Source: Desulfurococcales archaeon (GTDB lineage Archaea > Thermoproteota > Thermoprotei_A > Sulfolobales > Desulfurococcaceae). Taken from it: 43,591 nt of DNA. Below are positions 3 to 31,800 of this stretch, piece after piece. The translations under genes were made by a program, and so were the position numbers. The first letter of the stretch is position 1, and every line of letters begins with the position of its first letter. Below the pieces are notes generated by a model that was not told where the DNA came from, made no database searches, and was given only the letters and a program-made list of their open reading frames with translations. The DNA is taken from the NCBI GenBank assembly GCA_027002875.1, contig JALWZC010000090.1, forward strand, positions 1 to 43,591. Direction: 5' to 3'.

Positions 3-3000
3 ATAACACCCGGCGTAGTAGTAGACCAGGTGTTTCGGACTGGTAAGCTAGTCGTAAATGTTTCATCATATAATGGCGAGAGGGCTTCGGAATGGATACC
101 GGTAATTGTTGTGCAGGGTAATGATACGAGTGGGGAATATATTATTAGTGGAAGGACTAAAAGAAGCATAGCATTTTACGTACTACCAGGCAGCTACACA
201 GTCATAGTACCTGGAATCAATACTACTTATGAATGGTACGTCAACATAGGGTATGGTGAGACAAGGCTAGACTTAAACGTTTCAGAAGCAAATATAACTG
301 AGACATACTTCAACCTAGGCAGGATAACCGTAAACATTGACCTCCCCGGCTCGCCTGAAAGCGTCCGCAGCTACATTAGGATAGTTATCGCTGAACAGAA
401 AGTAGTTAATGGAACACCAGTTCCTGGAAGAATTATTAGGGAGGAGCCCTACTGGAACCTCCCATTGACGGCTAGCTTCGAAGTAACCCCTGGAGTATAC
501 ATGGTTTATCTTGAAGGTTCTGATGGGGAACCTATTAATGGAACGTTAACGTCGAATATCGCTGTTGATCCTAATGGATTAGCTATCGTTAACTACACGT
601 TATCAATACTAAGGGTCAGGCTAGTGGTAAATAATACCCCGGTACCCGGCGTGGACATCGATATCTATAGGGGGACTGGTGATAGTAGACAGTTTTACTC
701 GGAGATAACGACTGATGCAAGCGGTACAGCTGTTATAGCATTACCCCCTGGAAACTATAGTTTATGGACATTTGTACCAATAGAGGATGAGGATCACCTA
801 CTAGGAACAGTCAATATAACAGGGAATGGGCAAGTACTAAACAGGACTTTCCAGTATCCGGGAGGATTCATAGTCCTACGCCTACTAGGACCCGGCGGTG
901 AGCCAGCGGCTAATGTTAGGGTTCAGTTCAGATCCCTAGACCGCTACTCTTCAGAGATTATCTACACCGATATGGATGGATATGCTTACGCCTACCTGGC
1001 AGCAGGGACTTATAGGATATTAGTCTATCCCTTCCTCTACAGCTATACGGGCGGTAGAATCGTTAGCGTTGCTCCTGGAGAATCCGTCTATGTCGAGCTA
1101 CGCCTCTCAAAGGTTACACTACACGTTAATGTATCCGGTAGTCCATGGCTTGTATTCTACATTAGGAATAACACTGATGGAAGACTATACAGCTTCGCGC
1201 CACGCCTCTATAATAGTAAAGACTATGATTTATGGCTTCAACCCGGAAACTATACAATAGCCCTCCCAGGATCCAGGACTACTATACAGTCATGGAACCG
1301 GTACGGCTACGGTACGGAGTATAGCTTCATACTAGGCCCCAACGACCATGTTGAGCTAAGCTTCAACGTGTCGGAGATAGTAGTTATGCTAAACCCGTGT
1401 GGAGACTATGATTTAGCTAGTTCACTATACGCGTACCTACTAGGATATAATAGCAACCTATCAGACCCATACACTGAAGTTATAGGGAATCGATACTTTG
1501 CAACATACTATCCACAAGCATATGCAGTATTCTACGTTACACCCGGCGAATACGCTGTAATAATACCTGGAGACCCATGGAATTCTACATGGTTCTACTC
1601 AAAGTTTGGAGAATACATATACGGATCCCTGATAGGCTATGGATTAATGGATCACGCATTAATAAGAAATGGCGGGGAAATACTAGTATACCAGCACAAT
1701 ATTTCAGTGCTAGCCCTCCACTTGAATAATACTTACCCGGAGGGTGCTAGGGCTAAATACTCTATTTATACGCTCTCGGGATCCCTCGTAAGATCGGGGT
1801 ATGTAAGTACAGGAAACTATATATTCATACCATTAACACCCGGACAATACATCCTAGACAACTACGGCTACACAAACATAACACTTACAGAGTGCAACGC
1901 TACGCTAGTAGAATTAAAAGTTGCTGGTTTAAGCCTTAAAGTAGTAGGCCCCGATAACGAGCCTGTGGAGAATGCGTATTATACCGTGTATGATGTAAAC
2001 GGATACTATGTATCATCAGGCTATACCGACTCATACGGGGAAACCTTCATATCATTAATGCCGGGCGATTACAGGCTAGTGTTTCCGGGAGTAAATTACT
2101 CTTATAGTCCCTACAATGCAAAATACTACTTGAACAAACAGTTCGGATACGGACTACAACTAAACATTACAATAACAGGATATAACAAGTTGAAAGTAGT
2201 GTTCTCGAGGATAGACGTAAACATTACATCACCCATAGGGAGTCCGAGCAATGTAGAAGTAATCCTCTATACTCCGGACATGTCTAAGATCATAAAGGGG
2301 GCATATACAGGCTCCGACGGAATCGCAAGGTTCTACGTTACAAGTGGAAGTTATAGAGTAGTTATAAGGGGATTATACTACGGATACAGCGATGCATACT
2401 ATGTAGGCTGGTCGTACTATCCATTATTTGGGTATGGCGCAGTAGTCGGGGATGTCAATATTGGAGTAAATACTTCATCCACGCTATACTATAATTTATC
2501 AGTGATAAAGCTAAGAGTCCTAGACACCAATGGAAACTATGCTGGCGGGCTACGCGTAGTGCTTAGAGCGAATAACACGTATACGACATCCCTAGTATAC
2601 ACGTATACATCAAGCTATGAACCAGTATACTTCTACGTTACAAATGGAACATATATAATAGACTTAACGTTCCTAAAGAGAGCCGTAAACGTTGGGATCG
2701 GGGAACTCGCCGATGTAGTAATAAACGTTGCAATGCTGCACGTACATATTAATATACCGGAGAATAATTACGATATTACCCTCTATGGTATATCTATAGC
2801 AGTGTATTATAATACCACTGGTACATCCGGCTACTCAGCAGTATTATACTACACTACTAATAGTACCGGAGACGCAATAATTTACACACCACTAGACATT
2901 AATGTAACAATAGTGATTAGAAAAGGTTATTCAATAACTGAAACCATCTACATGGACTCACAGAAGTATAGAGAGTATAATCTAAGCATATTCTACTTAA

Positions 3001-6000
3001 AAGTACTATCACCGACGGGACCAGTAAAATATCAGGAGTTCTACTTATACACACTCGACTACACGTCAAATATAAGGCTAATAACGGATCGCTTGGGAGA
3101 AGACTATACTATCATTGTACCGGGAACGTATATTCTACAGAAGAACGATTGGAGCTCAATTATTGGCAGGCTAGATGAGCTCGTAATTATACCGAGTTAC
3201 ACGGTGAAGAAATACCAGCTAAACCTCTCGATCCTGAACATACACACGTTAGTCCCTTCAAAATACTATCTCGGAAACCCGTTCCAATTCACTATCTCAT
3301 CTATCGATGGGTCATATGTTTCTTGGTCATACTACTTGTATCACAATAATACTAAGACTTTCTACGTAATCCCTGGAACATACGTTATACACTCGGATAT
3401 GAGTAATGGCTGGGATGTAAACAAGACAGTAGTCCTCCCCGAAAACACTACAAGGGACGTTACCTTCAAGCTCGGCGGATTAGTGCTACGGATATATAAA
3501 CCCGATGGATCACCGCTGAATCCATCCATCGATCACCCATACGGGTATTCTATGGTTGTGTCATTGTATACTGAGGTAAGTGGCTCACTGGGAAGCTTTG
3601 TATCAACTAGCCAGACCGACTCAGAGGGTAAAGTCGTATTCGGACCCCTAGTAAACGGAACATACGCTTTCAACCTAGATCCATACGATGACTATGGCGG
3701 ACCGTATAACCTCTACAATATTACCGCGGAACCCCTAGTGTTTAAAGAATACAACTTTACACTTGGCGGGTTAGTAGTACGCATGCAGTATAATAATGGA
3801 ACACCTGCACAGGGCATTGCTATAACGATTTATAGTAGGAGCTATGCACTGTACACATTGTACACTGATGCAAACGGAACGATTACAGCATACCTACTGC
3901 CTGGAACATACACACTGTACATTTACGGTCTAGGATACGTCTACAACATACACGTCTACTCTGGAAGATACACTAATAAGACATATACGACGAATCCAAG
4001 CGATCTAGAAGTAACGAGTATAACATGGACACCATCAACGCCGAGCGATGGAGACACTGTTCTCGTAACGGCCACTATAAGGAATAACGGGCCCGGACAC
4101 GTATTCAACGATTTCAACGTATTATTCTACCAGAATGGGACTAAGGTATACGAGGCAGTCGTACATGGATTGCTCAGCGGCTACAATGCTACGGTAACAG
4201 CCCCGATAACCGCTGTAGCGGGTACCGATGAGGTCAGGGTCGTAGTAGATCCAGATCAATCAATAATTGATCCTAATAGGGGTAATAACGAGTTAACAGC
4301 ATGGATAAACGTGTTACGCCCAGACCTAGAAGTAACTAGCGTGTGGATTAATGGAACACTAGCAGATGGAGCAGGTGCAACATTATACTTCAACATAACA
4401 AATAATGGGCCCGGAGCACTGCACCACGAGGCCAGCGTCAAGATAATCTACGGATCAATAGTAGCTTATAGGAGGATATACTCGCTCGAAGTAGGTGAAG
4501 TAGTAACATTATCTGTGAACATAGTTGTACTTGGTGGATCTTCAAATGCTGTAATAATAGTGGATCCGGATAATGAGATCAGCGAGTCCGATGAGGCAAA
4601 CAACGCCTACAACTACACACTGTCAATACCGCAGCCGGATATAGAAGTAGTATTAGTATCATTAAATACAAGTGAATTGATCGATGGAGGAATAGGGAAG
4701 ATAACAGCAATAATTAATAACACGGGAGGAAAAACACTAAGGTCTATAAGCATAGTATTGTATGCTAACGATAAATACCTAGGGTCAAGAAATATAAATG
4801 GCCTAGACACGGGTGAAACGGTAACAGTAACATTCTACATACTACTACGCGGAGGAACGACTAATTACACAGTAGTAGCAGACCCCCACAGTAAAGTACC
4901 CGATGCTAATAGGTCCAATAATAAGGCAACTCTACCCGTAAATATCCCATATCCAGACCTAGCATTCACCAGTCTATACTTTACACCAGCGAATCCTGCG
5001 AGCGGCGATATAGTACATGTAGTATTCAATATTACTAATATAGGAGTAGGAGGGACTAAGACAAACTTCGCAGTAGACTTAAAAGTAAATGGGAAAGTAA
5101 AAGCTTCAAGCTATATATCAAAAGACCTATACCCTGGAGACACGGTAACAGTAACGTTATCCACAACTGTACATGCTGGAAACAACACGATAGAGATAAT
5201 AATTGATCCACACGGCTACGTGTCAGAATCAAGCAAGGCAAACAACAAGTACGTATTCATAATAACCGTACCATACAGCGATCTAGAAATAAAAGAGATG
5301 AACATTTCGCAGGGACCATACCACAACCTGGGAGAAGTAAACGTAACAGTTACGATGGTTAACAACGGCCCAGGATCACTCAACGAGACGTTCTATGTAG
5401 CCTTCTTCGGAAACGATGAATTCCTAGAACAAGTCGAGGTAAATGGGCTTAGTGTTGGAGAGGAGAAGAATATAACGGTGACGATACCGGTTTATACAGG
5501 TTATTACACGATTAAGGCGATAGTAGATGATCATTATCAGAGGATAGTAGGGGGATCATATGTATGGGGACATAAACACGAAGTAGCAGATCCATTCAGG
5601 GACAACAACATAGCATCCAAGACAATATATGTTGCAGGACCAGACCTTACATTAATTAGTGCGGAAATAACCCCGCCAACGCCGAATCCATGGGCAGGAT
5701 TCAATATAACGCTGAGGGTAAGGAATAATGGAGACTACGCCTCAACGAGGCCCGTAGCGGTAACAGTCGAAGTAGGATCTGTGAGGCTTATTGATGAAGT
5801 ACCAGAGCTAGACGTAGGCGGTGAAGCAAATATTACTATCCCGGTACTCGACGGCCTGGATCCCGGGACATATACTGTGAGAATAGCTGTAAACCCGTTC
5901 CACGAAGTAGTAGAGCACGACTATACGGATAACAACTACACTACAACCCTCATTATACCAGCACCAGACCTAGCAATAACACGTATCTACTCACCAGTTA

Positions 6001-9000
6001 TAAACGGCTCAGTAGAAGCAGGGGATCAAATAATAATTAATATAACGGTGAAGAATTATGGTGCAAGCTTCAAACGCGACATCTACATTGAAGCCCTTGT
6101 AAATGATTTACTCATTGGAAACAACTACATCATTGGGGGAATGGAAAGCGGGGAGGAAAAGAACGTCACGCTATCATTAACAGCCATACCGCCGAGCCTT
6201 GAGAATACTAGGATAGTAATTGATCCACGCAATGACATTTATGAATCCGATGAGACAAATAATGAAGTAGTTTATCATGGACCCCTAGTTAGATCGTTGA
6301 TCCTCGGACAAACAGCCTACGATGTAATATACACGTACTATGAAGAATTCAACCTCAAAATACAGAATAATGGAGGTGTACCGTTAAAGGTTACAAACAT
6401 AGTATTCGATTCATCCAGCATAGTAGTCAATGCGACCCTACCCTTCACGGTAAACCCGGGAGAAATAGCTAATATACCAGTATTAGTTGATACATTGCCT
6501 GAAGGAGTAGGCCCGAAGACCTACAGAGTGTTTATCTATACTAATACCTCGATAACCATCAATTCAACGATCACAGTCTTTATCCACAATATCAGCGACG
6601 TGGTACGCGTCGATGTAAGTAGGAGCGAAGCAGTCTATAGCATGGGCCAGACAGATAAGATTACACTATGGATAGGATCACAGCTTCCATCAATAATAAA
6701 CAACGCACACGTAGAACTAGTGGGGAATGCATCGAGCCTCGTCGAAGGCACGACAAGCTTCGATGTAGTAGTGAATAATGCAATGGATATATTGGTTAAT
6801 GCAACCATACCGCCTGGAAGATACGTGTTATTAATAAACATATCACTCCAGAGCGTAGAATACTACGTAGTTAAAAAGGTTGATATAAGGATAGTTAGAG
6901 ACCCAATAGTCAGGATAATATCTCCTAGAAGCAACGACACAGTTCTAGCATCAAACACTCTAGTAATAACATTTAGGAGCAACGTACCGATAAATGGAAC
7001 AATCTATTTCAGAGATGTAAGTAGTCCTTCATGGACAATTATAAGGTATGGCGAGTTATCGAGGAATACTTTCTACAGGATACCAATAGGGGGATTATCA
7101 TCAGGACACAGATACGTGTTCTACATAGAGGCGTTATCAGAATACGGCTCATACACTTCTCCGATGTACTATGTAAACGTAACGGTTTCAGTAGTATTCG
7201 TGGACCACGAGCTTAACGTAACGATTAAACGCGACTACAACCAGCTAGTCTACATTAAAGTAAGGAATCTCGACTACGTATATTCACACACGATCTACGC
7301 TAAGATCATAGAGTCTAGCCCAGAGCTAATAGTAGACTTCGTAGGACCAGGATCAATCGATACCGTTGAAGAAGTAGATCCTGGTAAATACGTCGAGTTA
7401 ATGCTGGTAATACACGCTGCAGACACGACTAGGAATAACTACACTATAACGGCAATGCTGGTGAACCTAGACAGTAACGCTACAGACTACATGGTTATAC
7501 ACGTATATGTCAAGGAGCCGGTTTTCAACGTTACACTAGACTATCTCGGAATGGATAATCATACACTAGTACAGTCGTGGAGGCTGGTGAATCATGGAGA
7601 TACGATAACTGATCTAAGCGTACGCCTCGAAGGACCGGCTTCATCGTTCGCCTACGTATACCCCTCGATGAACCATGTCAGAATAGAGGAGGGACAAGCG
7701 ATATACTTCTACGTAATACCAGTACTAGGAATATACCCGTTGGACCCGGCACAGCATAATGGAACCCTAGTCGTTGAAACTGGAGACCCAGCATCGTATA
7801 GGTATGAGATGCCGCCCATAAACCTCCCGAAGGGTTCAAAGATATATAGCGTACCAGTCGAACACGTTAGGGCTACCGGCCAGTCGAAAGACTGGTACTG
7901 TACTAATAGGCCCCACGTATCAACGAAGATCAAGGTATCAGTTGATCCACCAGCATTCAACAATACACTACAAGTAAACGCAACCCTATGGATAGACTTC
8001 ATACCACGCTACGATGTCTGGCACGTACTACCCCACGATGGAACAATATATGTGAACGGCGTACCAGTCTATAACTGGCACAACACTATACCGGAAGGAA
8101 CGGTGAAGATACCACTACCGCCTAGAGTTATTGAGAAAGCGGCATCGGCTGGAGGAGACATATACACATTCACCGTAACAGTAGATACTAAGCATATGAA
8201 CGGTGGACACTACGTCGTAGCGACGAATTACAAGTTACAAATCGACACTGGTTCAACATCGATATTCGTAGCAGCCTCGAGCTTCCAGGATGCTAAGAAT
8301 AGTGTAGCGCATCTACCTAAGCCTAATAATGACAAGGTTAAACCTAAAGAATGCGATAAAAAGGTGAAAATGCCTGGATGGCTGCAAGCACTTATAACCT
8401 ATTTGAAGGGCTCCCATAAGTGGAGCTTTGAGAACCTGCCAGCGCCGAAGATACTCTTAGACATGGTTAAGTCTAGCTCGCCGATAGAGATCAAGGCTGA
8501 GTTCTCAATAGAGGTAGATCCAACGCCGACATCTGTAAAGGTAAGTGGTAGTGGAAGCATTGAGCTCGGAGTCGGAATTTACGGGGCGGAAGGGAAGGTA
8601 ACAGCTAGTGGTGGATGGAGCGTCAAGAACTGTAAATGGGGCTTCGACGGCATAACGATTGAGCTGTCCGCTGGGGGAGGATATAGGTGGAGTTATGAAT
8701 TCCCGTTGGAATGGGCTAGGTGGATACCTAGAGCTGGTGATGATGCTAAGCCGTTAAGCGTTGAAGGAAAGATCTACCTAGAACTATCATCAACAGTAAT
8801 ACAGCTAGACGAGCACTTGAAGGTTAAAGCAATACCAACGCTAATACTCGGAATATCAGCTACTGGTAAAGCAGAGTTAAGCGTTGGTTCAAGAGTAAAG
8901 TTATCTGCAGAGGCAACAGCCGGATTCCACGCAGGTTACAAGGACTACGACTACTATGCAGAGTTCAAAGCGGGAATAACGGGTAATGTCGAGGTAGACC

Positions 9001-12000
9001 TCTCACTATTCTCAGCCTCAGCCTCCGGAACCTATGGGTTGAAATACGTATACGAGCATGGATCATGGGTTAAGAAGAGCTACAACGATCCAGGTGTAAC
9101 ACTGTTATCTTATCAGTTCTACGATATTGATCTACGCTATCCAACACTAGCATCACCATCGGCAATGAGCAGCCTAGGAGAGTCAACAGCTTACGTAAAA
9201 GGTTTAGGATTGTACACCGTATGGGTCTCAACAGATAATAACAATTCAAGGATAATGATCTCAGAGCTAGCCGGAGACACATGGACTACGCCAGCCAAGC
9301 TCAGCTTTCCCAACGAGAACTATGCATTAGTCAGAGCAGTACAAGTAGGTTCGAAGCTCGGTGTACTGGCCCTAGCAATGCCCAGTATAAACGAGGACAC
9401 GACTCTGTCAGAGCTAGTACGCTTACTCAACAGGGGTACATTATACTATGCAGAATACAATGGATCAGCGTGGACGCCTCCAGAAATAATAGCTGTAAAC
9501 GTCTCGCTATCATTGGATGTCGAGTCGTATAATGGATTAACAATAGCGGCTTGGTCGACGCTAATTAATAACTCCTACGTAGTCGAGGCATTGTTAAACG
9601 ATGGATCGGGCTGGAGCCCGGTAACGATCATACCGGGATCAAGGGTTCCAAGCACGTATACAATATACGATGTAGCAGCAGGATTCATAGATGGAAGACC
9701 CACGGTATACTGGGCCACCGACCTATACTGGGACGGAGATGAACTGATCAGGGGAGTAAAGTACGCCCGGTACAACGGTGAATCATGGACTACACCAGAC
9801 ACACTACCAACCACGAGTTATGCAGCACTACTCGACGCCGACACTTATGGCAGGATCGCGTGGAGCACTGATGGAGGAAACATCTACTTAGCAGGATGGA
9901 ACGGAACCACTTGGATCATTGTAAGGATAGGGACGGGCTTCGATCCATCAATGCTATCAGGTAAGAACAAGCTACTAATAGCCGCTAATATCAGGGATGA
10001 CCGCGACGATATAGAAGTATACATTATCAATACTGTAACGTGGAAGACGGTGACGGCGAGGATAACGGATGACGACCTACTAGATAACCAGTACACATTC
10101 GCACATACACCGAGCGGGTACCTAGCACTAGTATGGAGGCGTAGCCTAGACCCAGCAGTAGAAACACCGCCAGAAAACAAGACATGGGCTAGCGGAATAG
10201 TCTACGAACCACTCTACAACGTCTCGATAACAGGGCTAGAAACTACTAAACCAATAGTAGAAGGCAACCCATTAACAGTAACGACGAACATAACAAACAA
10301 CTCTACAAAACCAATAACCGGAAAACTAAACATATACCTCAACGAATCACTAGTTAAAACCGTAAACGTACTGATACCGCCGAACACAACATATACCGTA
10401 GACGAGAACATAACGATCAATAAATCAGGGAAGTGGAGCATAAAAGCAGAACTAACAGACCTAAACGCTACATCGATCGGAGTACTCGAGAAAACAATAA
10501 CCCTTGAAACACTAAGACTCATCCAGAACACAACTCTAACACCGGGATCATACATCGATGCAGTAACAACTATACACCTATACATAAACGGCTATAAGAA
10601 GACAAACATAACGATAACAGCTGGAAACCTAACAGTCGGCAGTGCAGACGAAGTAGTTGGAGATGTAGCAGTACAGTTAAACCTATCAAAACTACCCGAC
10701 GGTCCAACTACACTAATAATCAATGCGGTAACAATAGACGGGGCAGCCAATGATTCACTATCAATATATGTATACCTCGACAAGACTCCTCCAACAATTA
10801 TAGTACATGAGCCAGAGAATAACACGATTGTATCCGGTAATGTAACGGTTACAGCAGAGATCTATGATACATATTACAGCCTACCAACAACGCCCGAAGT
10901 ATACATCAATGGCTCCACTACTATGTGGACGCTGGTAGAAGGAGACAATTACACTTTAGTGATAGATACAACAACATACCCGGATGGTAAACCGTTAAAC
11001 ATAACAATAGTAGCAGTAGACGTATCTGGGAAGACTAAGGTTAAAACAATATATGTCACTCCAGATAATACGCCGCCAACTACAACCGATAATTCTACGA
11101 AGACATGGTATAATAATGACGTAACAATAATGCTTACAGCAACAGATAACGTTGCAGGAGTAAACGCTACTTATTACAGCGTAGATAATGGATCATGGAT
11201 TGTGGGGAACATAGTCTATATACCGGCACCAAGCGACCACAGCAATGACGGAACACACACGATAATGTATTACAGCATAGATAACGTAGGCAACATTGAA
11301 CCAGTAAATACGCTTATCATAGGAATCGACACATTATCACCAATAATAACATGCAACATAGCCAACAACACCTACTTCTCGGGAGGAACAGTTAGCTTCT
11401 TCTTCCACATAGTAGACAATACGTCGGGCCTATCGAAAGCCTATGGGTACTTCGATGGATCACTACAGCGTATAAAGAACCTAAACGGCGAACACGAATA
11501 CACGATGGGCTTCCAGGGATTAAACCTAGGATACCTAAGAGAGGGTATGCACTACTTCAGGATAGTAGCAATAGACATTGCAGGAAACACTAGGGAATAC
11601 CTACTAGTATTCTACGTAGACAAGACTCCACCGACAGTTGAGATCACGAGCCCAGAGAATGGAGCCCTAGTATCCGGAACGATCAATATAACCTTCAACT
11701 ACACCGACAACCTATCACCAGTCTACGCATACCTACACATAAATGGTGAAACAATAAACGTTACGGGATCATACAGCTACATACTTGACACGACACAGTA
11801 CAGTGATGGACAGTTAACGATATCGCTTGAAGCAATAGACTATTCCGGCAGGAGATCCACGGATACAGTAACGATAATAATAGACAACACCCCGCCGGTG
11901 GTAACAATAAATACGCCAGCTAATAACTCAGTAGTAGGAGGAGTAGTAACAGTATCATATAGTGTTGATGAAGAACACCTAGACCAGGTATGGCTAAGCA

Positions 12001-14159
12001 TAGGAAACATAACGGTAAACATAACAGGTTCAACAACTTACAGCTTAAACACCACGATACTATCAGATGGAACATACACGCTGACAATTACTGCAAACGA
12101 TACACTAGGACATACAGCATCAGCTTCAATAATAATCATAATCGATAATACACCGCCGACAGCAGTAATAACCTACCCAGTAAGCCACGGATACTATTCT
12201 GGAGTAATCAATGTAACATTCAACTATTCAGATACAAACCTCGACAAAGCGTATCTGGGCATAGACGGCTCCTACATAGATGTAACCGGAACCTACAGCT
12301 ACGTACTGGATACTACACAGTACAACGACGGCGAGCACAATATAACGCTACTAGTAAAGGATAAAGCCGGAAACACTAGAGAGTACACGGTAACAATATA
12401 CATCGACAACACCCCGCCGACTGCACGGATACTATCACCGGGCAACTCAACCGTAATACACGACGTGGTAAACATATCTGTAATGTATAGTGATACATTC
12501 CTAAGAGAAGCACTACTAGTAATCGATAACGAGACAGTAAATATTACAGGAACCTACAATTATACACTAGATACAACAACCATGACGGACGGAGTACACA
12601 ATATAGCACTAATAGTACGCGATAAAGCCGGGCATGAATCAACGACTAGTATAGTAGTAATAGTAGACAATACTCCGCCAACAGCTGAGATAACAAGCCC
12701 AGCCAACAACACGTATCACCATGGAACAATAACAATTACAGTATCCTATAATGATTTAACACTAGAACAAGTACTACTAATCATAGACAATGACACCATA
12801 AACATGACGGGATTAACAAGCTACGACTTAGACACTACAAGCCTAAACGATGGAGAACACATTATTAAACTAGTAGTAACCGATAATGCAGGCCATGTTG
12901 CAAGCGATGAGATAACTATTATCGTTGATAATACTCCACCAACAGCATCGATCAATTCTCCAATGAACGGAGCAGTGGTATCCGGAACGGTAACTATCGA
13001 TGTATCCTATAGCGATGCAAACCTAGAGGAAGCCAAGTTATACCTTGATAACACGCTAGTAGCGGAATTAACGGGTACAACATACCAGCTAGACACGACG
13101 CAATACAGTGATGGAACCCACACGTTGAAACTAGTAGTTTCCGACAAAGCAGGGAATACTGTGGAGTCAACAATCACTATAACAATTGATAATACGCCGC
13201 CAGTAATCTCAATCAACGCACCCGGAAACAATACCTATGTTAAAGGAACAATAACAATCAATGTATCATATACTGATCTAACGCTGGATAAAGCAGTGCT
13301 AGTAATAAACGGGGTGGAACACGATATAACCGGTGAAACAAGCTATGTACTGGATACTACAACGCTGCCGGACGGCGAAGTAGCGATCACGCTGAGAGTA
13401 ACGGATAAAGCTGGGCATGAATCAAGTGAGAGCATAGTCTTAATCGTAGATAATACGCCGCCTACAGTAGAGATTACTTCGCCAGCTAACAACGCGGTGA
13501 TATCTGGGACGGTGAGTATAACCTTCACCGTTGAAGATGCAAACATTGAAGAAGCGATACTAATGATTGATGGAGCGGAACAAGTAGTAACCGGGATGAA
13601 CAGCTATACATTGGACACTACAAAGCTAGGGGACGGAGAACACACGATAACGCTGAAAGCAGTAGATAAAGCAGGAAACAAGGCTGAAGCATCAATAACG
13701 ATAATCGTCGATAATATCCCCCCAACTATAACGATTATATCACCACTACCAGACGAAGCATACTACTTGGGACAAACTCTGAACGTGAAATGGGGCATTA
13801 ACGATGCAAACCCGGTAGAAACAATACTATACATCGGAGAAGAAGAAATAAACGTAACCGGGAAGACCAGCATCACCTACAGCCTCGAAAACATCCCAAC
13901 GGGGACGCTAACCATAAAGATCAAAGCAACAGATACGGCGGGAAACACGGCAGTCAAAACAGTAACAATACGCGTACTAGCACAAACAACAACTACACCA
14001 CCAACTACAACAACCCCAACAACCACGCCCCAGACAACTCCACCGTCAACAACCAGCCCACCACCTACAGCGTCTACTACAACAGCGGTAATAATTGGAG
14101 TAGTAATAATACTACTGCTAATAGCAGGGATATACCTGCTGAGAAGTAAGAAAACATAG
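3..14159 (+). CDS. Giant modular cell-surface protein, 5' end outside the window
   Basis: The frame has no stop from base 3 to the TAG at 14157-14159, so the GTG at base 30 is not a supported start and the N-terminus lies upstream. At least 4,718 codons are present. Numbering from the GTG as residue 1, the order is: carboxypeptidase-regulatory-like repeats with PGxY turns (about 1-1320); seven CARDB/APHP-like units (about 1325-2085); beta-rich linker (2090-2790); a Gly-rich strand region (2790-3030); a propeller-like segment with six Trp turns (3055-3370); twelve bacterial-Ig-like units opening with DxTPP-type sequences (3584-4650); a Thr/Pro stalk; one membrane helix (about 4686-4704); and tail RSKKT. 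N-x-S/T sequons are dense. It is probably an extracellular adhesin or cell-wall stalk anchored by its C-terminus. Catalytic motifs were not seen. Anchored surface location is strongly supported, exact role is not. Confidence 0.93.
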   Translation: MTPGVVVDQVFRTGKLVVNVSSYNGERASEWIPVIVVQGNDTSGEYIISGRTKRSIAFYVLPGSYTVIVPGINTTYEWYVNIGYGETRLDLNVSEANITETYFNLGRITVNIDLPGSPESVRSYIRIVIAEQKVVNGTPVPGRIIREEPYWNLPLTASFEVTPGVYMVYLEGSDGEPINGTLTSNIAVDPNGLAIVNYTLSILRVRLVVNNTPVPGVDIDIYRGTGDSRQFYSEITTDASGTAVIALPPGNYSLWTFVPIEDEDHLLGTVNITGNGQVLNRTFQYPGGFIVLRLLGPGGEPAANVRVQFRSLDRYSSEIIYTDMDGYAYAYLAAGTYRILVYPFLYSYTGGRIVSVAPGESVYVELRLSKVTLHVNVSGSPWLVFYIRNNTDGRLYSFAPRLYNSKDYDLWLQPGNYTIALPGSRTTIQSWNRYGYGTEYSFILGPNDHVELSFNVSEIVVMLNPCGDYDLASSLYAYLLGYNSNLSDPYTEVIGNRYFATYYPQAYAVFYVTPGEYAVIIPGDPWNSTWFYSKFGEYIYGSLIGYGLMDHALIRNGGEILVYQHNISVLALHLNNTYPEGARAKYSIYTLSGSLVRSGYVSTGNYIFIPLTPGQYILDNYGYTNITLTECNATLVELKVAGLSLKVVGPDNEPVENAYYTVYDVNGYYVSSGYTDSYGETFISLMPGDYRLVFPGVNYSYSPYNAKYYLNKQFGYGLQLNITITGYNKLKVVFSRIDVNITSPIGSPSNVEVILYTPDMSKIIKGAYTGSDGIARFYVTSGSYRVVIRGLYYGYSDAYYVGWSYYPLFGYGAVVGDVNIGVNTSSTLYYNLSVIKLRVLDTNGNYAGGLRVVLRANNTYTTSLVYTYTSSYEPVYFYVTNGTYIIDLTFLKRAVNVGIGELADVVINVAMLHVHINIPENNYDITLYGISIAVYYNTTGTSGYSAVLYYTTNSTGDAIIYTPLDINVTIVIRKGYSITETIYMDSQKYREYNLSIFYLKVLSPTGPVKYQEFYLYTLDYTSNIRLITDRLGEDYTIIVPGTYILQKNDWSSIIGRLDELVIIPSYTVKKYQLNLSILNIHTLVPSKYYLGNPFQFTISSIDGSYVSWSYYLYHNNTKTFYVIPGTYVIHSDMSNGWDVNKTVVLPENTTRDVTFKLGGLVLRIYKPDGSPLNPSIDHPYGYSMVVSLYTEVSGSLGSFVSTSQTDSEGKVVFGPLVNGTYAFNLDPYDDYGGPYNLYNITAEPLVFKEYNFTLGGLVVRMQYNNGTPAQGIAITIYSRSYALYTLYTDANGTITAYLLPGTYTLYIYGLGYVYNIHVYSGRYTNKTYTTNPSDLEVTSITWTPSTPSDGDTVLVTATIRNNGPGHVFNDFNVLFYQNGTKVYEAVVHGLLSGYNATVTAPITAVAGTDEVRVVVDPDQSIIDPNRGNNELTAWINVLRPDLEVTSVWINGTLADGAGATLYFNITNNGPGALHHEASVKIIYGSIVAYRRIYSLEVGEVVTLSVNIVVLGGSSNAVIIVDPDNEISESDEANNAYNYTLSIPQPDIEVVLVSLNTSELIDGGIGKITAIINNTGGKTLRSISIVLYANDKYLGSRNINGLDTGETVTVTFYILLRGGTTNYTVVADPHSKVPDANRSNNKATLPVNIPYPDLAFTSLYFTPANPASGDIVHVVFNITNIGVGGTKTNFAVDLKVNGKVKASSYISKDLYPGDTVTVTLSTTVHAGNNTIEIIIDPHGYVSESSKANNKYVFIITVPYSDLEIKEMNISQGPYHNLGEVNVTVTMVNNGPGSLNETFYVAFFGNDEFLEQVEVNGLSVGEEKNITVTIPVYTGYYTIKAIVDDHYQRIVGGSYVWGHKHEVADPFRDNNIASKTIYVAGPDLTLISAEITPPTPNPWAGFNITLRVRNNGDYASTRPVAVTVEVGSVRLIDEVPELDVGGEANITIPVLDGLDPGTYTVRIAVNPFHEVVEHDYTDNNYTTTLIIPAPDLAITRIYSPVINGSVEAGDQIIINITVKNYGASFKRDIYIEALVNDLLIGNNYIIGGMESGEEKNVTLSLTAIPPSLENTRIVIDPRNDIYESDETNNEVVYHGPLVRSLILGQTAYDVIYTYYEEFNLKIQNNGGVPLKVTNIVFDSSSIVVNATLPFTVNPGEIANIPVLVDTLPEGVGPKTYRVFIYTNTSITINSTITVFIHNISDVVRVDVSRSEAVYSMGQTDKITLWIGSQLPSIINNAHVELVGNASSLVEGTTSFDVVVNNAMDILVNATIPPGRYVLLINISLQSVEYYVVKKVDIRIVRDPIVRIISPRSNDTVLASNTLVITFRSNVPINGTIYFRDVSSPSWTIIRYGELSRNTFYRIPIGGLSSGHRYVFYIEALSEYGSYTSPMYYVNVTVSVVFVDHELNVTIKRDYNQLVYIKVRNLDYVYSHTIYAKIIESSPELIVDFVGPGSIDTVEEVDPGKYVELMLVIHAADTTRNNYTITAMLVNLDSNATDYMVIHVYVKEPVFNVTLDYLGMDNHTLVQSWRLVNHGDTITDLSVRLEGPASSFAYVYPSMNHVRIEEGQAIYFYVIPVLGIYPLDPAQHNGTLVVETGDPASYRYEMPPINLPKGSKIYSVPVEHVRATGQSKDWYCTNRPHVSTKIKVSVDPPAFNNTLQVNATLWIDFIPRYDVWHVLPHDGTIYVNGVPVYNWHNTIPEGTVKIPLPPRVIEKAASAGGDIYTFTVTVDTKHMNGGHYVVATNYKLQIDTGSTSIFVAASSFQDAKNSVAHLPKPNNDKVKPKECDKKVKMPGWLQALITYLKGSHKWSFENLPAPKILLDMVKSSSPIEIKAEFSIEVDPTPTSVKVSGSGSIELGVGIYGAEGKVTASGGWSVKNCKWGFDGITIELSAGGGYRWSYEFPLEWARWIPRAGDDAKPLSVEGKIYLELSSTVIQLDEHLKVKAIPTLILGISATGKAELSVGSRVKLSAEATAGFHAGYKDYDYYAEFKAGITGNVEVDLSLFSASASGTYGLKYVYEHGSWVKKSYNDPGVTLLSYQFYDIDLRYPTLASPSAMSSLGESTAYVKGLGLYTVWVSTDNNNSRIMISELAGDTWTTPAKLSFPNENYALVRAVQVGSKLGVLALAMPSINEDTTLSELVRLLNRGTLYYAEYNGSAWTPPEIIAVNVSLSLDVESYNGLTIAAWSTLINNSYVVEALLNDGSGWSPVTIIPGSRVPSTYTIYDVAAGFIDGRPTVYWATDLYWDGDELIRGVKYARYNGESWTTPDTLPTTSYAALLDADTYGRIAWSTDGGNIYLAGWNGTTWIIVRIGTGFDPSMLSGKNKLLIAANIRDDRDDIEVYIINTVTWKTVTARITDDDLLDNQYTFAHTPSGYLALVWRRSLDPAVETPPENKTWASGIVYEPLYNVSITGLETTKPIVEGNPLTVTTNITNNSTKPITGKLNIYLNESLVKTVNVLIPPNTTYTVDENITINKSGKWSIKAELTDLNATSIGVLEKTITLETLRLIQNTTLTPGSYIDAVTTIHLYINGYKKTNITITAGNLTVGSADEVVGDVAVQLNLSKLPDGPTTLIINAVTIDGAANDSLSIYVYLDKTPPTIIVHEPENNTIVSGNVTVTAEIYDTYYSLPTTPEVYINGSTTMWTLVEGDNYTLVIDTTTYPDGKPLNITIVAVDVSGKTKVKTIYVTPDNTPPTTTDNSTKTWYNNDVTIMLTATDNVAGVNATYYSVDNGSWIVGNIVYIPAPSDHSNDGTHTIMYYSIDNVGNIEPVNTLIIGIDTLSPIITCNIANNTYFSGGTVSFFFHIVDNTSGLSKAYGYFDGSLQRIKNLNGEHEYTMGFQGLNLGYLREGMHYFRIVAIDIAGNTREYLLVFYVDKTPPTVEITSPENGALVSGTINITFNYTDNLSPVYAYLHINGETINVTGSYSYILDTTQYSDGQLTISLEAIDYSGRRSTDTVTIIIDNTPPVVTINTPANNSVVGGVVTVSYSVDEEHLDQVWLSIGNITVNITGSTTYSLNTTILSDGTYTLTITANDTLGHTASASIIIIIDNTPPTAVITYPVSHGYYSGVINVTFNYSDTNLDKAYLGIDGSYIDVTGTYSYVLDTTQYNDGEHNITLLVKDKAGNTREYTVTIYIDNTPPTARILSPGNSTVIHDVVNISVMYSDTFLREALLVIDNETVNITGTYNYTLDTTTMTDGVHNIALIVRDKAGHESTTSIVVIVDNTPPTAEITSPANNTYHHGTITITVSYNDLTLEQVLLIIDNDTINMTGLTSYDLDTTSLNDGEHIIKLVVTDNAGHVASDEITIIVDNTPPTASINSPMNGAVVSGTVTIDVSYSDANLEEAKLYLDNTLVAELTGTTYQLDTTQYSDGTHTLKLVVSDKAGNTVESTITITIDNTPPVISINAPGNNTYVKGTITINVSYTDLTLDKAVLVINGVEHDITGETSYVLDTTTLPDGEVAITLRVTDKAGHESSESIVLIVDNTPPTVEITSPANNAVISGTVSITFTVEDANIEEAILMIDGAEQVVTGMNSYTLDTTKLGDGEHTITLKAVDKAGNKAEASITIIVDNIPPTITIISPLPDEAYYLGQTLNVKWGINDANPVETILYIGEEEINVTGKTSITYSLENIPTGTLTIKIKATDTAGNTAVKTVTIRVLAQTTTTPPTTTTPTTTPQTTPPSTTSPPPTASTTTAVIIGVVIILLLIAGIYLLRSKKT
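30..3990 (+). repeat. Region coding for N-terminal PGxY beta-sandwich repeats
   Basis: About fourteen protein-level repeats of roughly 80-110 residues. Each ends in a turn such as LPGSYTVIVPG, TPGVYMVYLEG, QPGNYTIALPG, MPGDYRLVFPG or LPGTYTLYIYG, often followed by a GYG element and a strand beginning the next unit. The pattern fits carboxypeptidase-regulatory-like (transthyretin-type) domains. The repeats are diverged in DNA and no long identical stretches were noticed. Confidence 0.7.
4002..6285 (+). repeat. Seven tandem CARDB/APHP-like units
   Basis: Units begin at 4002, 4323, 4638, 4956, 5280, 5643 and 5967 with (P/S)D(L/I) followed by a beta strand, for example PDLEVTSVWI and PDLAFTSLYF. 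Each has a core NNGPG-like turn and closes with a (V/I)DP...E(S/A)..NN signature such as VDPDNEISESDEANN. Spacing is 105-121 residues. CARDB domains are extracellular adhesion or spacer modules in prokaryotes. The fifth unit has a His-containing insertion before its closing motif. Confidence 0.8.
9190..10150 (+). repeat. Six-Trp propeller-like segment in the giant protein
   Basis: Six similar turns, DTWTTPAKL, SAWTPPEII, SGWSPVTII, ESWTTPDTL, TTWIIVRIG and VTWKTVTAR, put Trp at residues 3085, 3148, 3195, 3253, 3295 and 3338 (GTG at base 30 as residue 1). Each is preceded by a strand ending in (Y/W)NG or a similar turn. Six units 42-63 residues apart suggest a small beta-propeller or sialidase-like repeat fold. 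No sialidase Asp-box signature (SxDxGxTW) was seen, so enzymatic activity is not claimed. Confidence 0.55.
10779..13983 (+). repeat. Twelve tandem bacterial-Ig-like units
   Basis: Units open at 10779, 11064, 11328, 11619, 11883, 12144, 12405, 12666, 12927, 13188, 13449 and 13710 with DKTPP, DNTPP or close variants. They carry an internal (L/I)DTT..(S/N)DG turn and a DKAG(N/H) element before the last strand. From 11883 onward every start is exactly 261 bp (87 codons) after the previous one. The first three units are divergent and differ in length. The modules are typical stalk-forming Ig-like domains of prokaryotic surface proteins. Confidence 0.85.
13984..14144 (+). other. Thr/Pro stalk and C-terminal membrane anchor of the giant protein
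   Basis: Codes for about 33 residues made almost only of Thr, Pro, Ser and a few Gln, followed by a hydrophobic helix (AVIIGVVIILLLIAGIYLL); the short basic tail comes just after. This is the usual archaeal arrangement of an O-glycosylated spacer next to a C-terminal membrane anchor. It fixes the orientation: the long N-terminal part is outside and the tail is in the cytoplasm. Confidence 0.85.
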
Positions 14160-14640: not shown

Positions 14641-15795
14641 TTGAATAAGTATGTAGTGTCACTGTTTCTACTTATCACGATACTCATAGGTATAGCGCCA
14701 ATAACTGTTATTAGCCAGGATAATAGCGGTTCCAGCCATATTTACGCGAAGTACGAGTACGCCATGGATATTTCGATCAATAATACCTCGAGGATTAGGA
14801 TAAGCGCGGAGTTCATTATATTATTGAACATAACGGGTTCAACGATCTATGGTGAAGTGAGGCTAATCCGTGGGACAAGCTATATATCATCAACAAACGC
14901 TCCGAGTCCAACTACAACAACTATAACGCCGAGTGAGAGCGAAGCTAGTTATAAGTTTACAATACCTATAGATAACTATTATACTGGTTTGCGAAACGAG
15001 ATCGGTAGGAGCACTATATCGACTCCGCAGCTAGGCACCTTCAACCCTGGAAGCCTCGTTGGGCCATCACTATATGGTGTTGAGAAGCTGGAGGCGACTG
15101 ATTATAACGGGTACCCGGCTATACATGAAACTATAAATATAGAGTTTTCGCAGTTGGGGATAAACTATACGATCACCGGTGATATATATCTGCATGAAGC
15201 ATACCTTCTACCACTCTACGTGCACTTAAACGTTAAGATATCCGGGGATGGCTACGGCAAACCCTTTACTGGCGAAGGCGTTGTAGAGCTTAAATTACTT
15301 GAAGGAAATATTCCGAGGGAGACAAGTCATGCAGAGATAAACGTTAACGGAGTCAAGATCGTTGTTGGAGGCTTTCCGGGGGCGAAGATAGTAGTTGCCG
15401 GGAGGAAGGGTAGTAGATTCATCAATGTTACTAATAAAGGGGATCAGCCCGGCTACGTAATGATCTACCGTGGAGGCTACAGCCTTGCACCGATAAGTCA
15501 AGATATGAAACAGAATGTTGAACTGGTACAAGTAGCACCCGGAGAGACTAAGAGGATCAATGTAGGCGTGCAGCTACCAGATAATATCGAGGAATCGACG
15601 AGTCTGAGGAGCGGAGGATCATTCCTCTCATCGCCGGAAATACTAGTGTTAACACTAATAGTGATCGGGTTGTTAGCAGTACTAGGATTAATAGTGTATA
15701 AAGCAATGCATCCAGGGAAAACAGTTGAAGCAACAACTATAAGCGAAGAACCCGGTACTGAGGAGGAGGCACCGATCGGGTCGGGGACTGTCTAA
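14641..15795 (+). CDS. Membrane-anchored surface protein, 384 residues, unknown function
   Basis: The start is TTG, with GAGGGG at 14626-14631 as a plausible but rather distant ribosome binding site. Residues 1-25 form a signal peptide (hydrophobic core SLFLLITILIGIAPITVI). The exported part is beta-rich with several N-x-S/T sequons and a short Thr/Pro run (PSPTTTTITP) near residue 100. A membrane helix lies at about 333-355 and is followed by an acidic cytoplasmic tail rich in Glu. No catalytic motif was recognised. It follows the giant surface protein and a small exported protein, so it may belong to the same envelope structure, but it has its own intergenic region. The layout (signal, exterior domain, anchor) is well supported. 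Confidence 0.85.
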   Translation: MNKYVVSLFLLITILIGIAPITVISQDNSGSSHIYAKYEYAMDISINNTSRIRISAEFIILLNITGSTIYGEVRLIRGTSYISSTNAPSPTTTTITPSESEASYKFTIPIDNYYTGLRNEIGRSTISTPQLGTFNPGSLVGPSLYGVEKLEATDYNGYPAIHETINIEFSQLGINYTITGDIYLHEAYLLPLYVHLNVKISGDGYGKPFTGEGVVELKLLEGNIPRETSHAEINVNGVKIVVGGFPGAKIVVAGRKGSRFINVTNKGDQPGYVMIYRGGYSLAPISQDMKQNVELVQVAPGETKRINVGVQLPDNIEESTSLRSGGSFLSSPEILVLTLIVIGLLAVLGLIVYKAMHPGKTVEATTISEEPGTEEEAPIGSGTV

Positions 15796-28112: not shown

Positions 28113-28832
28113 TTGGATAAAATAATCGAGCTGATAAATGTTAAGAAAGCCTATAGGACCGGTAACATCGTAACATGGGGTCTTAGAGGGGTAGACTTAG
28201 TAGTTTATAGGCGCGATTACATCTCAGTAATGGGTCCCAGTGGTAGCGGTAAATCAACACTGTTAAACATGATCGGCCTCCTAGACGTCCCGAGTGAGGG
28301 GAAGGTTTTAATTGACGGAATAGACACTTCTAAGCTCTCATCCAAGAAGCTAGCATATCTGCGGAACCGGAAGATAGGCTTCGTATTCCAGCAGTTCAAC
28401 CTAATATCGAGGTTTACCGTGCTTGAAAACATCGAGTTACCCCTAGTAGTAAGAAGCATTCCCCGGCGGAAGAGGATTCCGAAAGTTAAGGAAGCATTAA
28501 AAATGGCTGGTGGGGAGGAATCATGGCTACCGAAGAAGCCTACACAGCTCAGCGGTGGGCAGCAGCAGAGGGTCGCTATCGCCAGGGCGATCGTTGGAGA
28601 CCCCGAGATATTACTAGCCGATGAACCCACGGGAAACCTTGATAGGAAGAGCGCTAAAACAGTAATAGAAACATTCACGGAGCTAAACAGGAGGGGGCAG
28701 ACGATAATAATTGTAACACATGACCCCGAAGTAGCTAATTGCACTAATAAAATATACCTTCTAAGAGATGGGGTAATAATCGGCCGGGAAGAGCCCGAGC
28801 CGGATAAATGTATTATTAGGACCGTTAAATAG
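28113..28832 (+). CDS. ABC ATPase of the LolD/MacB family
   Basis: 239 residues; TTG start. Walker A GPSGSGKST (41-49), Q-loop FVFQQFNL (90-97), signature LSGGQQQR (146-153), Walker B ILLADE (166-171), D-loop GNLD and H-loop VTHDPE are all intact. The SGxxSTLLNMIGLLD segment is typical of LolD, MacB and FtsE ATPases, which drive a FtsX-fold permease mechanically instead of moving a substrate through a channel. It is the first gene of a triad, 62 bp before the 1,558-residue surface protein, with the permease after that. Confidence 0.94.
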   Translation: MDKIIELINVKKAYRTGNIVTWGLRGVDLVVYRRDYISVMGPSGSGKSTLLNMIGLLDVPSEGKVLIDGIDTSKLSSKKLAYLRNRKIGFVFQQFNLISRFTVLENIELPLVVRSIPRRKRIPKVKEALKMAGGEESWLPKKPTQLSGGQQQRVAIARAIVGDPEILLADEPTGNLDRKSAKTVIETFTELNRRGQTIIIVTHDPEVANCTNKIYLLRDGVIIGREEPEPDKCIIRTVK

Positions 28833-28894: not shown

Positions 28895-31800
28895 ATGAAT
28901 AAGTTTAGGGTTTTTCTAAACACGTTTACACTACTCTTAATCCTAACATCCATGTTCCCCGGCAATATATACTACGTCGAAGGATCCAGTAGTGGATCAT
29001 TCATTTACCATTACACGGTTTTCCAGTCAAGCAGTGGGGGAGAAGTATACCCGGGTAGTAGTGGGGCCGGGCTCAGGATCGGGGTACAGTATAATGGAAC
29101 AGTTAACGCGTCAACGGTCTACGGATGCATAACGCTGCCCAACGATTTAACACCGCGTACAGGCTGTAGCCCAGCCTACAGCTTAACGGGTAACCCGGTT
29201 GAAACCGTTGAGCCCGGTGATATAGTAGAGTTCCACTACACGATAGACGTCTCGAGAAACGCTACGCCGGGAACATATAGTGGATTATTAAACATTACAT
29301 ACACGCTACAAGGAAACTCATCGATACACAGCCAGATAATAATGTTCAACGTATCGATCACGGAGTACCCCGAGCCCAGTATAAGGGTTGTAAAAAACTA
29401 TTGGAGCCCTGCAGGATATCCGGGCAGTAATGGGGTAAGCCTAGTATTGATACTTGAGAACGATGGGGAATCAACGCTAGTAAATGGAGCCCTAGAACTA
29501 CACTTACCTCAAGGCTTCGAGCCCGGTGTAGTCCACGGATCCATTAATGGCTTGGCTCCAGATACTCGCTCAACAATAGTCTTCAACGGGATAAGCATTT
29601 ATCCAGACACTAAGCCTGGAAACTATACTGGTAGCCTAGTAATAGATGCACTGTACTCGACGAGCGATGGTGTAAGGTATAATAAGACGATCATGATCGA
29701 GTTCAACTTCACCGTTGATGAACCACCGCCGGTAAATATCGAAGTAGTAGATTACGGGTTAACGACGAATAACCCCTTTATCGGTACAATGTACACTAGA
29801 ATATACACTGTTTTCCAAAGCCTAGATAATGCATTGATCGAAGCAGGCCTAGCAATAGTTGAACTAGAGAACACATACTACGTTAACGGCAGCAGTAAGG
29901 CGTTGATAAGCATTAACACCCCTATAAGATATGGAGATACGTTCACGATACAAACACCTAGGCTCGTAGTCTCGGAAAACGATTCAACAATAATATACCG
30001 CATAACACTACACTTATTGATGAATAACAACGGAGTAGAATACTGGAACACCACTAGCATAATATTATTCATCAGGGTAACACCTCCAAACATCCAAGTA
30101 TACGTTACAGCAGCATATTGGGGTTCAGGGAAAGTATACCCTGGTACGAGTAGTGCATCTCTACACGTACGGTTACTAAACACGATGGACTCAACACTGA
30201 GGAATATCTATGCAGAACTACAACTACCCAGTGAAGCCTTCCTCGAGGACACAATACACAGCGGCCCCTACACGTTAACAGCTGGATCGATGGAGGAACT
30301 CGTTCTTAACGGAATAGATGTTAAGCCGGATGCAAAACCCGGAAACTACACTGTAAAACTCGTAATAACCGGAATTCTAGATGGTAATGATGGTTCATGG
30401 ATAAACGTAACGGTAAACTACACAATAATACTAGGGATAAGTGATCCAAGGCTTAAACCGCTGGAAAACATACTCTATGAATGGCCTGGTCAAAGACCCG
30501 TATTAGGAGCTCGGGGCTTAAGCTTAAGGATCACGTTGAACCTAACAATACAGTCGAGGATACTGTCGGGTACAGCTACCCTAATAATGCCTAAAGGCGT
30601 AGAGCATGGACCAACCGGCTTAAACAACATGACTATCCAACTACCACGGCTGAACTATGGAGAAATAGGCTCGATAACATTCACCGGTATAGACGTATCA
30701 AACAATACCCGGAACCCGGCAGTATTCGCTGTAAAATACGTTTACCTCCTAAGCATTAATGGTGCCGAATCATGGGTTAACCAGACAATAGTGTTTACAC
30801 AAGTATTCGGAAAACCAAGGTTAAACATATCAATAATTGATAGCGGATGGACAAGCCATGTGATGAGTAATGTATCGGTAAACGCTGGCTTCTACATTAC
30901 AATTCAGAGCTTGAGCAGGGATAGGATAAACCAACTAATAATAAACACTACACCACTCGGCAACGCATTCTTCGGAAACGGCCACAAATACACGGTTAAG
31001 ACTATAAGTTTGGCGTTAAACTATGGAGACACATACACGATCATGTTCAATGGTTTAACGATTAATACGAGTAGAGACAGCGTAGGATTTGAGATTAATG
31101 TTAAAGCGAGGCTTGAGACTGGGCAAGCAGTATACTATGCCCGTAGAATATACGCTTTGAGGCTACCGCTGAATAAAACTATTAGGCAAATAATCATCTA
31201 CAACCAGTACATAACAAGCAATAACCAGCCAGCAATGCTTCTACCCAATGAGAAGGGCTCAACACTCCGCTTAACGATACTAAACATCGGCCCGGAGAAC
31301 ATTGAGACCCTGAGGGCTGAGCTGAGGCTACCAAGTGGTATTTGGAGTTATAAACCAGTCGATACATGCTCGGGCTTAGCGGCCGGCTCAATCTGTGGCT
31401 TATCATACCCTATTGACACGGGGAGCATAATACCCGGCACCTATAATGCATCACTCGAATTAACTTACTCATTGAGTTCATCGGGCTCGATCCAGTACTA
31501 TCACGAATACTTGGAGATCAGACTAGTAGTCGACGACCCCGCTAATTATAAGCCGAGCCTATTATTGTTATCAAGATACTGGGGCACGGGTCAGCCAGCA
31601 TACACGTATCCCGGAGACAGTTATGCATCGTTAACTGTTAGGATACACAATACAGCCCACTACCCAGCTCACAACCCCATTGTAAGGCTAGTACCCCTCG
31701 ATAAATCGATCAGAGTTCTAGACGAGAATAAGACTTGTGGAACAATAGGATCAACAGGTACATGTATGCTGACATACCACTTAGATCTAAGAAACGCTCA

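Follow-up and report, generated by a model that had tools for sequence, protein, structure and literature searches.

To our knowledge, little beyond tetrabrachion, the membrane-anchored surface protein of Staphylothermus marinus with a bound subtilisin-type protease and a cleaved chain, has been described in detail for the surfaces of hyperthermophilic Desulfurococcales. Tetrabrachion stands on a coiled-coil stalk 70 nm long (PMC5744192). Among archaeal proteins of at least 5,000 residues, a 2024 survey ranks CarboxypepD_reg with Big_13/Big_3_3 and Glucodextran_B as the second commonest architecture (PMC11573180). Giant bacterial RTX adhesins, including MpAFP, LapA and a 5,047-residue Aeromonas adhesin, are chains of thousands of residues in which ligand-binding domains are embedded among tandem Ig-like spacers; published work on such adhesins provides the comparison for an adhesin reading (PMC7493085, PMC12077191), and those that have been solved follow the same spacer logic (PMC7493085).

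The gene described here encodes a single giant surface protein that is anchored to the membrane by its C-terminus, as an earlier note on this DNA had proposed, and it relates differently to each of these systems. Like tetrabrachion, it belongs to the same order and has beta-rich parts, but it lacks a coiled-coil stalk, its chain is several times longer and its module set is different. The longest run free of Gly and Pro in any complete homologue is 54 residues, and a PDB search gave no match to the solved tetrabrachion stalk. The earlier comparison with tetrabrachion is therefore fair for size, but the two proteins are of different kinds, with no room here for a coiled coil. All four Pfam models of the surveyed archaeal architecture match the present protein, which is likewise archaeal, near or above 5,000 residues and uncharacterised, although the likeness is one of Pfam sets and not of accessions, and the CARDB block, propeller and central domain are not named in the survey text (PMC11573180). 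Lengths of at least 5,000 residues are found in a congener (5,361) and predicted for the window organism (about 5,360), while the homologue in genome G004 has 4,849. The earlier note did not recognise this architecture, a statement that the survey weakens: this kind of giant surface protein is already catalogued in archaea, although uncharacterised, and the present gene is a further member. RTX-type tandem Ig-like extenders are represented by 13 Big repeats. RTX adhesins have a type I secretion signal and an N-terminal retention plug, whereas the giant protein has a signal peptide and a C-terminal transmembrane helix and is built of archaeal modules (CARDB, CnaB-like). No RTX or type I secretion signal was found at its C-terminus, where a transmembrane helix and basic tail occur, and no RTX Pfam model matched. 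For Desulfurococcales, the present gene adds a giant surface protein that is conserved and has been mapped with precision.

Extent and conservation of the gene

The window, meaning the whole stretch of DNA analysed (43,591 nucleotides), is the entire contig JALWZC010000090.1 (C90) from an assembly of 132 contigs. Its left edge is the contig end, so the gene is cut there. The window retains the 3' part of one giant gene (3..14159, + strand), with 4,718 codons and a stop at 14157-14159; roughly 642 codons at the N-terminal end fall outside the contig, and no other contig of the same assembly yielded them. A complete gene occurs in the congeneric Desulfurococcales archaeon isolate S143_80 (WAON01000050.1, contig C50), with 5,361 codons from an ATG and a signal-peptide-like N-terminus, MYKPLFIIVLVIILTGLILPITYG. 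The two proteins are collinear and 90% identical. Congener residue 643 aligns with window residue 1 (congener residue minus 642 gives the window residue), which places the full length in the window organism at about 5,360 residues. The frame from base 3 to 14159, with 4,718 residues, had been read correctly in the earlier note, and the complete homologue bears out its view that the gene reaches past the left edge; "at least 4,718" residues conveyed the giant size and is now corrected to about 5,360. Doubt about the GTG at base 30 as a start was also justified, because alignment with the complete congener places this codon inside the gene.

In an alignment of 4,717 codons, the congeners differ by 351, 167 and 983 substitutions at codon positions 1, 2 and 3, respectively. 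The dN/dS ratio between them is 0.15 overall and 0.09-0.24 across all 400-codon blocks, a pattern that indicates a single gene under purifying selection. Two more genera have collinear genes, with identities of 45% and 35%. One of these genomes, G004, is a single contig of 1,910,795 bases in which the 4,849-residue gene is complete; the G002 contig (JALVIT010000051.1), from the second genus, runs out within the Ig array. The four homologues compared (window, congener, G002 and G004) thus represent three genera. Each of the 13 Ig repeats of the window protein is 84-95% identical to its positional counterpart in the congener, compared with 18-42% mean identity within the protein. The dN/dS values, collinearity in other genomes and positional orthology of the Ig repeats mean that the frame is neither a chance occurrence nor an assembly artefact.

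Modules along the chain

Modules were identified with Pfam and NCBIfam profiles, HMMs made from the protein's own repeats, blastp, AlphaFold2 and Foldseek, and the domain order given earlier proved essentially right when set against the Pfam, own-repeat HMM, AlphaFold2 and Foldseek results. All features below lie on the + strand. Complete homologues begin with a hydrophobic segment (by hydropathy), followed by an N-terminal domain some 190 residues long, for which helical structure is predicted at low confidence (AlphaFold2 from two sequences, mean pLDDT 40). This domain has no Pfam or NCBIfam match, and a PDB profile search gave chance-level matches only. The window opens within an array of CnaB/prealbumin/carboxypeptidase-regulatory-like beta repeats of 75-110 residues, 15 of which are recognised by the own-repeat HMM (3..3992, window residues 1-1330) with Pfam matches to CarboxypepD_reg (1.9e-12) and SpaA (4.4e-12). 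The complete congener has 18 recognised modules and space for about 20 (congener residues 211-1972). Eight tandem CARDB modules follow (3942..6494, residues 1314-2164, congener 1956-2806; Pfam CARDB 5.9e-70 and own-repeat HMM), one of which resembles the solved cell-surface protein 2l0d. A ninth, isolated CARDB module lies farther downstream (10143..10418, residues 3381-3472; own-repeat HMM E 3e-20), and the count of eight plus one is identical in all four homologues. The CARDB array leads into an Ig/FN3-like linker region (6495..7499, residues 2165-2499; blastp) that is partly common to a bacterial locus, L013, and to genome G155 of the same order.

The conserved central domain (7500..8327, residues 2500-2775, congener 3142-3420) carries the signatures DWYC(T/N)NRP and KHMNGGHYV. 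It has no Pfam, NCBIfam or convincing PDB relative, and no copy turned up in 300 sampled Thermoproteota genomes, the window's own genome not counted. It does occur in the bacterial secreted protein of L013 (JAOZPP010000049.1, 4422-9878), which is 24% identical to the archaeal giant over 536 residues that cover both signatures. The L013 protein has 1,818 residues with dockerin and type IX secretion tail domains. This sharing, which covers the central domain and the Ig-like region before it, points to lateral transfer or to a wider undescribed domain family.

Next comes a glycine-rich domain with long amphipathic beta strands (8337..9146, residues 2779-3048, congener 3421-3690), which is the odd part of the protein. 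AlphaFold2 draws strands of 11-18 residues here at low confidence. In all four homologues this domain has the highest beta hydrophobic moment of the protein, with a 150-residue maximum of 0.41-0.47 compared with at most 0.35-0.37 elsewhere, and the moment exceeds that of shuffles of its own sequence by 7 standard deviations. In the window protein, Asn makes up 1.5% of the domain versus 7.2% of the whole protein, and Lys+Arg 11.1% versus 3.9-7.6% in other blocks. It is the only large block without any N-X-S/T sequon in all four homologues, partly because Asn is scarce; composition predicts fewer than one sequon. PDB searches with the central and glycine-rich domains found no convincing relative (best E 0.022), other Thermoproteota gave one weak partial match to the glycine-rich domain (E 0.004), and no counterpart of it was detected in L013. 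The domain may be buried in an oligomer or may simply be a different fold type. The strongest beta amphipathicity in all four homologues, together with the lack of sequons, would also suit a beta barrel or sheet formed between chains or in contact with a lipid membrane. The fibre would then be more than an adhesin and carry an extracellular element that is channel-like or oligomerising; we consider this very unlikely. The organism is an archaeon for which we know of no outer membrane. The central and glycine-rich domains are thereby singled out as two undescribed units, short enough for expression and structure solution.

A probable six-bladed beta-propeller follows (9159..10142, residues 3053-3380, congener about 3695-4022). 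AlphaFold2 modelling of the core block from four sequences gave pLDDT values of 80-90 over approximately residues 3100-3250 and low values elsewhere. Foldseek matched the propeller portion to sialidases and six-bladed lectins (best E 5.6e-7), with TM-scores that are low because the query is long. Neither the sialidase RIP motif nor an Asp box is present in the window sequence, so the likeness to sialidases is one of fold only and no enzyme is claimed.

Beyond the isolated CARDB module, 13 tandem bacterial-type Ig repeats, mostly of 87 residues, extend towards the membrane (10506..13976, residues 3502-4658, congener 4144-5300), with Pfam matches to Big_7 (2.3e-54), Big_3_3, Big_13 and Glucodextran_B. 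NCBIfam matches to barrel_OmpL47 (E 2e-21) and T9SS sortase both fall within this array and were set aside as probable Ig-like similarity. The array has 7 repeats in G004, and with a constant CARDB count the membrane-near stalk is apparently the part whose length evolves. A Thr/Pro/Ser linker (13986..14069) then joins the array to a C-terminal transmembrane helix with a short basic tail, LRSKKT, which forms the membrane anchor (14070..14156; Kyte-Doolittle maximum 3.16). By hydropathy, complete homologues combine a signal peptide with a C-terminal transmembrane helix, as in a type-I anchor, of which the window shows the C-terminal part only. The giant protein contains 135 N-X-S/T sequons where 58 +/- 7 are expected (2.3-fold), and sequons are likewise enriched in its three relatives.

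Distribution and proposed function

A 967-residue core query matched 7 of the 214 genomes of the order. One of these, G155, has a weak partial match (27% identity over 270 residues); the remaining six carriers belong to five genera of one family. Of 40 genomes from the family, 4 have the N-terminal domain, and each of these also carries the core. Most genera of the family have no related protein, including Staphylothermus-sized complete genomes, and beyond the five carrier genera the family's complete genomes showed no similarity. Similar proteins were not found in phages. No operon is conserved across genera, and flanking genes differ between genera.

The reading that we favour, with restrained confidence, is a single heavily N-glycosylated, type-I-anchored surface fibre of about 5,360 residues that is most likely an adhesin. 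Its secure part, a membrane-tethered glycosylated fibre, we infer from the signal peptide, C-terminal anchor, sequon enrichment and tandem beta-sandwich modules; the rigidity suggested in the earlier note is plausible. The protein would be exported via its signal peptide and tethered to the membrane by a single helix at its C-terminus. The Thr/Pro linker, Ig repeats, and CARDB and CnaB-like beta-sandwiches would form a stalk that places the helix-rich N-terminal domain at the greatest distance from the cell. If each of the approximately 40 consecutive modules spans 3.5-4.5 nm, as assumed here, the fibre would be some 150-190 nm long. Candidate binding parts are the propeller, the central DWYC/KHMNGGHY domain and the N-terminal domain, with the repeats presumably acting as spacers, for which variation in Ig count from 13 to 7 is expected. 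Adhesion is suggested by this layout of spacers and binding modules, the restricted distribution and the likeness to bacterial giant adhesins; occurrence in 7 of 214 genomes in non-conserved neighbourhoods is more in keeping with an accessory adhesin than with a core component of the cell wall. Against adhesion, the propeller and central domain lie mid-chain and not at the tip, the confident propeller model is partial and the N-terminal model is poor.

The alternative that survives best, although unlikely, is a structural S-layer protein or S-layer stalk, a counterpart of tetrabrachion or SlaB that would hold a canopy high over the membrane. Open p4 meshworks with a broad quasi-periplasm are reported for Desulfurococcaceae, and tetrabrachion combines a membrane anchor with beta-rich arms (PMC5744192); the type-I anchor and strong sequon enrichment of the giant protein fit this picture, and its occurrence in so few genera may mean that one clade has it as the regular cell wall. 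However, the sequence leaves no possibility of a coiled-coil stalk, relatives are lacking in most genera of the family and one chain of 5,360 residues would be a costly lattice subunit. Less probable again is a precursor that is cut after export into several surface proteins, with the CnaB, CARDB, core and Ig blocks acting separately. Tetrabrachion sets a precedent with its heavy and light chains and Glu700/Gly701 cleavage (PMC5744192), and two arrays flank a distinct core block here, but no cleavage site was identified, and with the membrane anchor on the last piece only, the others would have to stay bound. That the long frame is an assembly artefact or a fusion of separate genes is almost certainly wrong: the contigs are of metagenome type and the gene touches a contig end, but the same collinear frame occurs in four genomes, one of them a single contig (1.91 Mb), dN/dS is low over all blocks and the repeats are positionally orthologous. 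The complete homologue in a single-contig genome may permit a laboratory test if the organism is cultivated.

Neighbouring frames and further copies

The congener alone shares the downstream 384-residue protein and pyruvate:ferredoxin oxidoreductase. The gene for the 384-residue protein follows the giant gene (14641-15795, + strand). Its product has no Pfam match and shows an N-terminal hydrophobic segment, a NEW3/Ig-like appearance and a C-terminal transmembrane helix; it is 82% conserved beside the giant gene in the congener but not in other genera. Farther along the window, a 1,558-residue open frame (28895-33571, + strand) with a weak NPCBM_assoc match comes right after an ABC-transporter ATPase gene (28113-28832), and possibly encodes another large surface or exporter-linked protein. 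Genome G010, from the same family, has three distinct copies of the N-terminal domain, together with several pieces of the core, on short contigs (C56, C111 and C177; loci L025, L027 and L028), and it may encode several paralogous giants.
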